64,000 nt of DNA, taken from contig NZ_CP016778.1 in assembly GCF_002288265.1 (NCBI RefSeq), forward strand, positions 620,001 through 684,000, written 5' to 3'. The position numbers were made by a program, and so were the translations under genes. How positions within the stretch are numbered: the stretch's first letter is position 1; the number at the start of each line of letters is the position of its first letter. Source of the stretch: Candidatus Planktophila versatilis (lineage in GTDB: Bacteria; Actinomycetota; Actinomycetes; Nanopelagicales; Nanopelagicaceae). Positions 44,973 to 48,051 of this stretch are shown one piece after another. The notes under the pieces are model-generated. The model searched no databases. It had not been told where the DNA came from and saw nothing but the letters and a program-made list of their open reading frames with translations.

Positions 44973-46157
44973 TTAACCTAACTGATGGAGGGCATGGTCG
45001 AGTAGTTCCTGGGCAAGCGTGTCTTTGGTGGTCTTGGCCACTTTATAACTGGCACCAGTGCTGGTGAAAATCTCTCCAAAAGTTGTCTCGCTATTGAAGA
45101 TATCTCCCCCAGAAACATCATTGAGATAGAGGATATCCGCACCCTTAGCCAACATCTTGCTTTGGGCTGCATTTGCGTCATGGGAAGTCTCTGCCGCAAA
45201 AGCCACGACGACTTGCTTGACCTTAACGTCATGAAGACTCTTGAGAATATCCACATTTTCCGTGAGATTGATCGTAGCGAGTGAAGCCTTCTTAATTTTC
45301 GAATCCTGCATCTGTTCAGGACGCGCATCCGCAACTGCTGCCGCCATCACCAGAACATCACACTGCGAAAATTCTCGATGCAAAACCTCGTGCATCTCAG
45401 ATGCCGTTTTCACATGAATAGTTTGAACACCTTCAATATCTGGCAGTGACGCATTTGCCGATACGAGTACAACATCTGCCCCTCGTCGAAGTGCCTGCAA
45501 GGCAACGGCGTAACCTTGTTTCCCAGAAGATTGGTTTCCGATAAAACGGACGGGATCTATTGGTTCCCGAGTACCGCCTGCGCTCACCAGGACTCTCCTG
45601 CCTAAGTAATCAGATTTCACTTGAGCTAAATCCGAGAAAGCTTGCAACATTTTGGCTGTCTCTGGAAATCTTCCTTGGCCCACATCTCCGCTAGTGAGTG
45701 CTCCGACGTCGGGATCTAGGACGTGATACCCACGCTCTCGTAATACTCGCACATTTGCAGTCGTCGCTTGATCACTCCACATATTTGGATGCATTGCGGG
45801 AACTATCAAAACTGGAACGTTAGCTGCCAGGATGACATTAGTCAGAAGATCATCGGCTCGACCTGCCGCAATTCTTGCTATCAAGTCGGCAGTCGCCGGG
45901 GCGATGATGATGAAATCAGCCTTTTTTGCTAACGAGACATGGCGAACTTCTTCTACACTCTCAAAAACTTCGGTAGTGACTGCACGCCCAGAAAGAGCTT
46001 CCCATGTTGCCGCGCCCACGAAATTCAAACTCGAAGGAGTGGGAACGACTGTTACGAGGAAACCAATATCTTGCAGGCGACGCAGTAAATCGCAAGATTT
46101 ATAGGCGGCTATACCGCCGCCAACACCGAGAATTACTTCGCGGCCATGTCCTTGCAT
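44973..46157 (-). CDS. coaBC: Bifunctional phosphopantothenoylcysteine decarboxylase/synthetase
   Basis: Two steps of coenzyme A synthesis in one protein of 394 residues. The N-terminal flavin-dependent decarboxylase (CoaC) shows G-G-G-I-A-A-Y-K-S, the catalytic histidine in V-R-H-V-S-L and P-A-M-H-P-N-M-W. The C-terminal synthetase (CoaB) has [20 protein letters not shown] split across its start. Order gmk-rpoZ-coaBC-metK-priA is conserved in actinobacteria. Confidence 0.95.
44975..44980 (-). promoter_or_regulatory. Leaderless -10 of metK
   Basis: TAGGTT, then 6 nt, then ATG at 44968. Its last base is shared with the coaBC TAA stop. Confidence 0.55.
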
Positions 46158-46174: not shown

Positions 46175-46435
46175 TTAAGCAGTTGGCTCAAGATTTTCGA
46201 TTGTCAGCAAACCTTCGTTAATCTCACGAAGTGCAATCGATAGTGGCTTCTCGTGAACGTGTGTGTCCACAAGTGGTCCCACGTACTCAAGAAGGCCTTC
46301 ACCTAATTGTGAATAGTAAGCATTAATCTGACGTGCACGTTTTGCAGCATAGAGAACCAGTGAATACTTTGATCCAGCCTTATCGAGAAGCTCATCGATA
46401 GGTGGGTTAGTGATTCCGTCCATGTGTGCACTCAT
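46175..46435 (-). CDS. rpoZ: RNA polymerase omega subunit
   Basis: Assembly subunit of RNA polymerase, 86 residues. The core [15 protein letters not shown] and [11 protein letters not shown] motifs are typical. AGGAG lies 8 nt before the ATG, so unlike its neighbours it uses a classical ribosome site. It follows the mihF-gmk fusion gene by 32 bp. Confidence 0.95.
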
Positions 46436-46467: not shown

Positions 46468-47340
46468 CTAGGCAGATGCCAATTCTATCAGGCTGGCAAC
46501 CACCTTCTCGACCTCGTCATTTACCAGGACTTTATCGAAGAAAGAGGCTGCAGCGAGCTCTTCCTGCGCCAAGGCTAGACGTGAGGCCCTGCGTTCTGCG
46601 CTATCTGTGCCGCGGCCTTCTAAGCGCGAGACCAACTCCTCCCAACTAGGTGGTTCCAGAAAGACGAGTACTGACTCCGGAATCTTTTCCTTTACCTGTT
46701 TGGCTCCCTCGATCTCGATCTCCAGAAGAACACTTTGTCCAGCACTCAGTGCGGCTTCCACTGGTAATCGTGGTGTTCCATAACGAGCTCCAGCAAATTC
46801 GGCCCATTCTAGAAACTCATTGTTCTTAACTGCTGCATCAAATTGCGTTGCAGTTAAGTAGTGGTAGTCAACACCCGCAACTTCATTAAATCTTGCCGGA
46901 CGAGTTGTCGCAGAAACAATTACTACGAAATCAGAGGCTTCCCGTAACTTCTTGGCGACTGTGCTCTTGCCTACTCCCCCAGGACCAGAGAGAACAATCA
47001 GCTTTCCTCTGCGCAGTGATGTCGGCAATTCAAATTCCTTTAGTAGCGCTGCTCGTTGGTAGCGTCCTAGCCCTTGAATCCGTCTCGTGCTGGAGATCTC
47101 AAGTTTTTCAAGTAACGCTTTACCACGAATTTTACCCACACCACTCTTTGATTCCACCATCTCAAGTACTCGCATCTTGGCAATGACTTCATTGCTCTGA
47201 GCTAAAGCGATAACCTCAGAAATACTCAATTCACCACTTTTGATTCGAGATTTCACTTCAGAGCGCTCTTGTCTAGAAGCCTTCGCTTTCGCCAGGGCGC
47301 TAGCACGCTCGGCGGGAGTCAGTTGCGGCGGGGTACCCAT
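46468..47340 (-). CDS. Fusion of actinobacterial integration host factor (mIHF) and guanylate kinase
   Basis: One uninterrupted frame of 290 residues encodes two normally separate proteins. Residues 1 to about 103 match mIHF, the actinobacterial nucleoid protein: P-P-Q-L-T-P-A-E-R at the start, V-I-A-K-M-R-V near 52, the G-V-G-K-I-R-G-K-A helix-hairpin, T-R-R-I-Q-G-L-G and closing A-A-L-L-K-E-F. After a linker of about ten residues comes a complete guanylate kinase (about 113-290), with P-loop G-P-G-G-V-G-K-S (119-126) and the GMP-binding S-A-T-T-R-P-A-R block. In M. tuberculosis Rv1388 and Rv1389 are separate genes in this place. An in-frame TTG (47028-47026) preceded by AAAGGA could give a separate kinase. 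Confidence 0.92.
47026..47042 (-). promoter_or_regulatory. Possible internal ribosome site and TTG start for the kinase half
   Basis: AAAGGA lies about 7 nt before an in-frame TTG at codon 105, exactly at the junction between the mIHF and kinase domains. It could be a relic of the ancestral separate gmk start, or active. Confidence 0.35.
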
Positions 47341-47346
47341 GTTTTA

Positions 47347-47352
47347 AACTTA
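47347..47352 (-). promoter_or_regulatory. Leaderless -10 of the mihF-gmk fusion, on the pyrF stop codon
   Basis: TAAGTT, then 6 nt, then ATG at 47340. The first three bases are the pyrF TAA stop (47352-47350). No ribosome site is present. Confidence 0.55.
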
Positions 47353-48051
47353 CTGCAGAATATCTTCAGCGATTGTGCGCGCAGCGGTAGTCATAGCTTG
47401 CGCGCCTTGCGCCCACGCCTGTGTGATTGGACGTCCGATAACAACGTAGCTTGCGCCAGCAGCAATCGCTGCTCGAGGAGTCATTGTTCGCTTCTGATCA
47501 TCACCTCTAGAACTACCTTCGGGGCGAACTCCAGGTGTGATGATCTGGGGTTCATCTCCAACGGCAGATCGGATTGCTGCAATCTCAAGCGGTGAACAGA
47601 CGATGGCGCGAGCACCAGCTTCGGTAGACATCTTGGCAAGTGCAACCGCGCTCTCAAGTGCGTTATTTGCGAACCCAATTTCAAAGAGATCCTCCTCCGA
47701 AAGCGAAGTAAGAATCGTCACTGCCGTGACATCGGTAGTCGGAAGCGCTTGTACTGCCGCCGAAATCACCGCGCGTCCACCAGATGCATGAACGGTGAGG
47801 AATCTTGGCTTCAATGATTGAACCGCGGTCGCAGCAGCTCCCACTGTGTGTGGAATGTCATGCAGCTTCAAATCTAGGAAAATATCAGAATCGGTCACAC
47901 CTTTAATACGCCTCACTCCTTCATGGCCGAAGGTGAGGAAGAATTCAAGACCCAACTTATAGACACTGACATGATCCTGGGTTGCCTCTATCCAACGTTG
48001 CGCTGTATCTAAATCCTGCGTATCAACCGCAAGAACTATCGGCGCTTTCAT
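47350..48051 (-). CDS. pyrF: Orotidine 5'-phosphate decarboxylase
   Basis: Last step of UMP synthesis. A TIM barrel of 233 residues, with the catalytic D-L-K-L-H-D-I-P-H-T-V motif and G-V-R-P-E-G near the phosphate site. It is the short E. coli/Bacillus-like form rather than the longer form (about 274 residues) of mycobacteria. Its start overlaps the pyrD stop as ATGA. Confidence 0.95.
   Translation of the reverse strand: MKAPIVLAVDTQDLDTAQRWIEATQDHVSVYKLGLEFFLTFGHEGVRRIKGVTDSDIFLDLKLHDIPHTVGAAATAVQSLKPRFLTVHASGGRAVISAAVQALPTTDVTAVTILTSLSEEDLFEIGFANNALESAVALAKMSTEAGARAIVCSPLEIAAIRSAVGDEPQIITPGVRPEGSSRGDDQKRTMTPRAAIAAGASYVVIGRPITQAWAQGAQAMTTAARTIAEDILQ

Follow-up and report, generated by a model that had tools for sequence, protein, structure and literature searches.

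The integration host factors of the actinobacteria that have been described, including the mycobacterial mIHF (Rv1388; PDB accession number 6tob) and the Streptomyces sIHF (SCO1480; 4itq, 6bek), are proteins of approximately 105 to 107 amino acids. sIHF is cited as a monomer on DNA (PMC10028186), and mIHF-80 is reported to be a homodimer in solution (PMC3724605). The gene is essential in Mycobacterium smegmatis, yet strains carrying msIHF-EGFP or msIHF-mNeonGreen grow like the wild type (PMC10028186); mIHF therefore tolerates an attached protein. In Mycobacterium tuberculosis, mihF is located upstream of gmk and rpoZ, and its deletion is polar on both of these genes, which had to be supplied (PMC6155035). 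The guanylate kinase (GMK) is a dimer, and its lid and C-terminal tail set its sensitivity to (p)ppGpp; in the same article, which includes the Staphylococcus aureus enzyme (4qrh), GMK is reported to be a (p)ppGpp target in several phyla and not in Proteobacteria (PMC6783271). A review of 100 actinobacterial genomes presents sIHF as a 107-amino-acid protein, and the words "guanylate" and "fused" are absent from its text (PMC4255298).

The window analyzed in this study, a stretch of 64,000 nucleotides in the single-contig genome (1,325,420 bases) of Candidatus Planktophila versatilis, contains mihF and gmk as one open frame. The known mIHF and sIHF proteins align nearly end to end with residues 4 to 103 or 5 to 103 of the fusion protein, whose DNA binding is predicted, and they end where its linker begins. 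The whole kinase domain and its signature residues are common to the fusion and to bacterial guanylate kinases, including those of M. tuberculosis (Rv1389; 1znw and 1s4q) and S. aureus (4qrh). Where the mycobacterial Gmk has a short N-terminal tail, the fusion carries mIHF, and unlike the bacterial enzymes in general, the kinase in the genus of the window has no conserved start of its own. The mihF-gmk-rpoZ cluster of other actinobacteria has the same order, with mihF directly before gmk, but there a stop codon (TAG, TGA, or TAA) interrupts the frame. The preliminary description knew of no report of such a fusion, and none was found in the literature searched here, most subscription papers and all bioRxiv preprints being outside its scope. 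Both parts belong to known families; the novelty lies in their being joined, in the recurrence of the fusion, and in the internal start that survives, as described below.

Frame, domains, and conservation of the fusion gene

The fusion gene is a stop-free open reading frame (ORF) of 290 codons that begins with ATG. Its parts and the neighboring features are as follows.

46468..47340 (including the stop codon), minus strand: mihF-gmk fusion gene, 290 amino acids (ORF; Pfam and NCBIfam profiles)
47032..47340, minus strand: mIHF domain, residues 1 to 103, actinobacterial IHF with an S13-like H2TH (NCBIfam actino_IHF; PDB 4itq and 6tob aligned)
47008..47031, minus strand: linker, residues 104 to 111 (gap between the two profile matches)
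46468..47007, minus strand: guanylate kinase domain, residues 112 to 290, and stop codon (TIGR03263; 1znw aligned; Foldseek 1s4q and 1znw)
47026..47028, minus strand: candidate internal start TTG, codon 105 (AAAGGAA at 47035 to 47041)
46175..46435, minus strand: rpoZ, next gene downstream (ORF and profiles)
47350..48051, minus strand: pyrF, next gene upstream (ORF and profiles)
44973..46157, minus strand: presumed coaBC-like gene, used as a tree marker (ORF)

In the N-terminal half, Pfam H2TH_5 matches residues 33 to 103 with 86 bits (cut-off = 27) and NCBIfam actino_IHF (NF041260) matches residues 5 to 103 with 111.8 bits (cut-off = 60). In the C-terminal half, Pfam Guanylate_kin matches residues 112 to 286 with 141 bits (cut-off = 25.2) and NCBIfam TIGR03263 guanyl_kin matches residues 112 to 288 with 205.4 bits (cut-off = 160.45). 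Both halves thus exceed the curated cut-offs, which bears out the claim of the preliminary description that one frame encodes a whole mIHF and a whole guanylate kinase. The gap between the profile matches is approximately 8 residues and not about ten, as had been stated. NF041260 has the model type "equivalog_domain," so that annotators may already have encountered longer IHF proteins.

The gene is located in a row of genes on the same strand, in which pyrD, pyrF, and rpoZ have profile-based identities. The first two precede the fusion and follow genes that we take from their sequences to be carB-like and pyrK-like, and rpoZ, which starts 32 bases after the stop codon of the fusion and was correctly placed directly downstream in the preliminary description, is followed by presumably coaBC-like and metK-like genes. 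The fusion start (47340) has almost no Shine-Dalgarno sequence (energy = 0.1), even though it is situated only 9 bases behind the end of pyrF, and the median energy of the mIHF starts in the clade of the window is 0.3 (51 loci). Translation of the fusion may depend on coupling to pyrF.

The fusion was matched in 32 of the 36 genomes of the same genus, and all 32 are free of stop codons over at least residues 4 to 288; the 4 genomes without a match are 57 to 82% complete. The same frame, with 99% identity, is found in a second, separately assembled genome of the species. The possibility that a sequencing or assembly error conceals a stop codon near the junction, which the preliminary description had raised, is excluded by these frames, and we regard its probability as negligible. 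In each of the 32 genomes, this mIHF is continuous with the kinase and not a stand-alone protein of approximately 105 amino acids. In the genome of the window, the profile search gave one PF00625 match and the search with the whole fusion protein gave one match; a second guanylate kinase copy was found by neither, and a separate mIHF copy was not visible to the whole-protein search. Since PF00625 has a single match in the genome, the fusion is likely to phosphorylate GMP.

Both halves are under purifying selection in the genus. With pairs of dS 0.1 to 1.5 (others were dropped), the 13 usable pairs of the mIHF half have a median dN/dS of 0.10, and the 28 usable pairs of the kinase half have a median of 0.05. 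In an alignment of 36 fused proteins, i.e., that of the window and 35 from named loci that are nearly all from Microbacteriaceae, the residues Arg23, Lys30, Gly69, Gly90, and Gln95 of mIHF are invariant (36/36), as are Gly119, Pro120, Val123, Gly124, Lys125, Arg147, Arg150, Tyr159, Glu178, Gly188, Thr189, and Glu207 of the kinase. The first five of these kinase residues are in the P-loop (GPGGVGKS, residues 119 to 126), and Arg147, Arg150, Tyr159, Glu178, and Thr189 are residues that we assume to bind GMP. Nine loci of Microbacteriaceae (L079 to L087) have the P-loop GPTAVGKG instead.

The AlphaFold2 model takes the shape of two folded domains (mean pLDDT = 94, pTM = 0.72) with a linker of lower confidence (mean pLDDT = 72, residues 101 to 110); each domain is well predicted, and the pTM value means that the arrangement of the domains is not firmly predicted. 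The top 50 Foldseek matches are guanylate kinases only, with 1s4q and 1znw at the top. Among the solved structures, 4itq (SCO1480) aligns over residues 5 to 103 and 6tob (mIHF) over residues 4 to 103, and the kinase half aligns with 1znw (M. tuberculosis Gmk) and with 4qrh, which is the top match by sequence. A solved chain spanning both halves was not found among the matches listed; the long protein FAP42 (7n6g) matches from residue 61 to residue 265.

One half might be a relic, such that either the DNA-binding tail of a working kinase or the kinase attached to a working nucleoid protein has lost its function. The mIHF half is indeed more divergent in Microbacteriaceae, where tblastn with the mIHF of the window aligned residues 33 to 103 in 2 of the 9 f36 loci and none in the other 7, but the profile search does find mIHF in the named Microbacteriaceae. 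This explanation is highly improbable given the low dN/dS and the invariant residues in both halves and a kinase that is single copy in the genome and essential elsewhere.

Distribution and number of origins of the fusion

In the sample of the family of the window, 189 of the 201 genomes have a match (23 of the family genomes were covered by an additional search), and none of the 12 genomes without a match is 90% or more complete. The matches are divided into 150 in 11 fused genera and 39 in 6 split genera (g29, g33, g34, g36, g38, and g40). Five genomes in which the gene is broken by contig ends (G119, G127, G207, G212, and G213) belong to fused genera and were counted as fused, and the split junctions were read base by base in 18 of the 39 genomes, with the other 21 resting on the genus and the match tables. 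The preliminary description had proposed related small actinobacteria as the place to look for the same fusion and had considered that close relatives might all have two separate genes; the fusion is found there, and the relatives are mostly fused. In two loci of g40 (L035 and L117), gmk begins with ATG immediately after the TAG stop of mihF and in frame with it, so that a single substitution would produce a fusion. The fused loci of g32 (L037, L038, L183, L184, and L185) have a linker that is approximately 12 residues longer than the others and of another sequence.

In the class sample, 339 of 344 genomes have a match. In family f36, at least 15 of 16 genomes have an uninterrupted full-length match (the remaining one, G391, is absent among the matches listed), as do, among the matches listed, at least 2 of the 17 genomes of family f34, both of genus g95. 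The loci of g95 (L088 and L089) are fused, and the other f34 genera that were read (L090 and L091) are split. Beyond the family, at least 15 further genomes of the class carry mihF and gmk in a common frame that is interrupted by one stop codon within the match, and in the two of these that were read (G039 and G287), the stop codon sits between the domains. When named genomes were scanned using an alignment headed by an f36 protein, the best relatives belonged to Microbacteriaceae (Microbacterium, Leifsonia, Curtobacterium, Cryobacterium, Agromyces, and others), and f36 is taken as Microbacteriaceae for this reason. The best 80 of 474 confirmed loci were classified by profile search; they were chosen by their likeness to a fused query, and the proportions are thus not those of a random sample. 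The fusion is present in 64 of the 65 loci of Microbacteriaceae and in 2 of the 3 loci without a family label, and all 12 loci of other named families (6 Micrococcaceae, 2 Cellulomonadaceae, and 4 others) are split. The sole exception among the Microbacteriaceae is L264 (Pseudolysinimonas kribbensis), in which 135 open codons precede the P-loop in the kinase frame, so that its split state possibly results from a frameshift or an assembly slip. The statement that mihF and gmk are two adjacent genes in related actinobacteria holds for the other families read, except for the Microbacteriaceae and one genus of a third family; the presence of the fusion in these two groups was missed in the preliminary description.

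The number of origins was estimated from two trees of five concatenated proteins, both of which include the mIHF and Gmk pieces beside three neighbors. Ten loci lacking the junction or duplicating others were dropped before the counts, and four more, cut by contig ends, were dropped from the tree set. The quick tree contains 68 of the 104 loci left, and the careful tree contains 32 loci taken from the 52 family rows of the quick tree. The quick tree places split genera at the base of the family and leaves the order of three clades open; on its own, it forces three changes over all families, with the forks near the root open. In the careful tree, g29 and g38 are outside, followed by g33 and g36, and a clade of g34 (split), g32 (fused), and g40 (split) is then separated from a clade of the other fused genera (support, 89/83). 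The starred branches of this tree force two changes of the fused state within the family, and a single change was found in 0 of 200 bootstrap trees. A single fusion inside the family is not supported, on these two grounds together with the different linker of g32, whose fusion is probably a separate event.

Because the root is among split genera, the two changes are two gains; a history with a single gain followed by two losses would take three changes. It is therefore most likely that the fusion formed twice inside the family of the window, the re-splitting of g34 and g40 in place of a second fusion in g32 being less parsimonious. Together with the fusions of Microbacteriaceae and g95, four origins in all are most likely.

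Start codons at the junction

Some single genes, such as cheA and clpB, give two products by means of an internal in-frame start. Whether the fused frame might likewise yield a free kinase was assessed at the junctions of 148 distinct fused frames (149 minus one duplicate of the window gene; a few are cut by contig ends), with the ORF start set by a length rule. These comprise 79 frames of the sister clade (clade A; g25, g30, g31, g35, g37, and g39), 64 of the clade of the window (clade C; g1, g26, g27, and g28), and 5 of g32.

In clade A, 72 of the 79 genes (91%) have ATG, GTG, or TTG in two neighboring codons of the linker, and 7 have no start at the junction. Where the first junction codon encodes Leu or Val, it is TTG or GTG in 53 of 68 cases, and the median over 62 Leu/Val columns is 21%. 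Only one of these columns scores higher (100%), and this is the start of the frame itself, which is NTG by construction under the start rule; the next scores 51%, and among 12 variable hydrophobic columns, the next after the junction scores 30%. Conservation of the residue as the cause of the start codon was rejected, as the junction is far above the other Leu/Val columns of the clade. Where the first codon is not a start, all 10 genes of g25 and 5 of 10 genes of g31 have ATG as the next codon. The state of the site (TTG, GTG, ATG, ATG one codon further on, or none) changes at least 15 times on the clade A tree, and the presence or absence of a start changes at least 5 times. The Glu codon located three codons upstream is GAG in 92% of the genes, the highest of 38 Glu columns.

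The pairing of the 72 clade A junction starts with the anti-Shine-Dalgarno sequence is strong (median = −7.3, 83% at or below −5) against a background of all 1040 in-frame NTG codons of the same genes, the junction starts included (median = −2.9, 24%). Among the loci for which flanking sequence was included, the values in the same clade are −6.7 and 83% for the rpoZ starts (n = 12) and −2.9 and 15% for the mIHF starts (n = 13); the real gmk starts of the split genera, with a median of −3.5 and 39% (n = 18), are weaker than the internal starts of clade A. For three of the four genes in this comparison, loci whose tblastn match starts beyond residue 12 were omitted. Clade A thus keeps an in-frame start that is under synonymous constraint and has a Shine-Dalgarno sequence as strong as that of rpoZ, a feature missed in the preliminary description. 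The conserved start, the synonymous constraint, and the Shine-Dalgarno sequence together indicate that clade A should make a free kinase besides the fusion. Similar to cheA and clpB, its frame has a conserved start with a Shine-Dalgarno sequence for the downstream domain; the difference is that this start looks like the old gmk start surviving in the fused frame, and that it is not conserved in the clade of the window.

The 64 genes of clade C have 67 Leu/Val columns, among which none at the junction is conspicuous, and the highest column (63% TTG) is near the C terminus, which demonstrates that a high column can arise without a start. An in-frame NTG is present somewhere in the linker of 55 of the 64 genes, compared with 79 of 79 in clade A, and a linker NTG with an energy at or below −5 is present in 15 of 64, compared with 62 of 79. 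A subset of the genus has ATG after a Glu-Phe pair. The window has TTG at codon 105 behind AAAGGAA, with a duplex energy of −5.7; within the genus, this site was seen elsewhere only in the second genome of the species (L062) and in an 84%-identical relative (L063). Because it is not conserved in the genus, TTG105 is probably unused or weak.

It is unlikely, in our view, that the species of the window also makes free kinase from TTG105, with the fusion then potentially being the minor form. The motif and its TTG are at a place like that of the clade A start, which occurs in 72 of 79 genes at a median energy near that of rpoZ, but the unconstrained junction column of clade C, the scarcity of strong linker NTG codons, and the restriction of the site to three genomes argue against such use. 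With no conserved junction start in clade C, the fusion is most likely the main or sole form in which the kinase of the window is made, although TTG105 leaves room for some free Gmk.

In the other fused groups, the five g32 genes all have NTG at the same position but lack a Shine-Dalgarno sequence at a suitable spacing. In the nine loci of Microbacteriaceae that were read, no start codon is conserved at one place of the linker, and GTG codons are found in the strand just before the P-loop.

Proposed history and significance of the fusion

The preliminary description is partly supported overall: the fusion is real and complete on both sides. We consider it probable that adjacent, co-translated mihF and gmk genes merged into one frame by loss of the mihF stop codon, a mutation that we infer, and that the product is a bifunctional chain. 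The series would run from adjacent genes, through a fused frame with an internal start, to an obligate fusion. In the genus of the window, the full-length product would be one chain with an N-terminal DNA-binding mIHF and a C-terminal active GMP kinase joined by the short linker. The DNA binding of mIHF would automatically place the kinase pool on the nucleoid, and the reported dimeric state of bacterial Gmk would give each kinase-dimer particle two mIHF domains. Such bivalence may not be new, given the reports of a monomeric sIHF on DNA and of a homodimeric mIHF-80 in solution.

Tethering of the kinase and a fixed ratio, both suggested in the preliminary description, are possible roles. The fixation of the fusion is most economically explained if two essential proteins are thereby always made together at 1:1; judged from the sequence, a fixed ratio follows only where no internal start is used. 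The recurrent and long-kept fusion is compatible with plain co-production, for which a signaling role is unneeded. A regulatory role is nevertheless possible. The genome encodes one RelA/SpoT-type protein and one HU-like protein, and the presence of the former, together with the report of GMK as a (p)ppGpp target in several phyla, makes an alarmone link of the fused kinase possible by analogy.

The fusion could accordingly be adaptive, either by tethering GDP synthesis to the nucleoid or by letting mIHF answer GMP, GTP, or (p)ppGpp through the kinase, a reading that we regard as possible but doubtful. It would fit the recurrence (two forced changes in the family, 64 of 65 named loci of Microbacteriaceae, and g95 of f34), the presence of the fusion in all 32 matched genomes of the genus, the RelA/SpoT protein, and the lid and C-terminal tail of GMK, which form an inter-subunit (p)ppGpp switch (PMC6783271). 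On the other hand, adjacent genes in the same frame may merge easily, as the 15 or more one-stop genomes suggest, so that recurrence needs no functional selection, and six genera of the family live without the fusion. Somewhat more doubtful still is the fullest version, i.e., the repeated origin of a nucleoid-bound GMP kinase with a dimer-bivalent mIHF, in which guanine nucleotides or (p)ppGpp would act on chromosome packing and one family would preserve the whole path.

On the preferred reading, that of a stop-loss merger, one chain permanently combines a chromosome-organizing protein with an enzyme essential for GTP synthesis, in a genome in which no separate kinase copy was found. The Microbacteriaceae include cultured species, in which the effect of the fusion is testable. 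The family also has an intermediate stage in which the start of the second gene appears to be kept, and this stage makes it testable how a fusion of two essential genes can avoid a harmful step.
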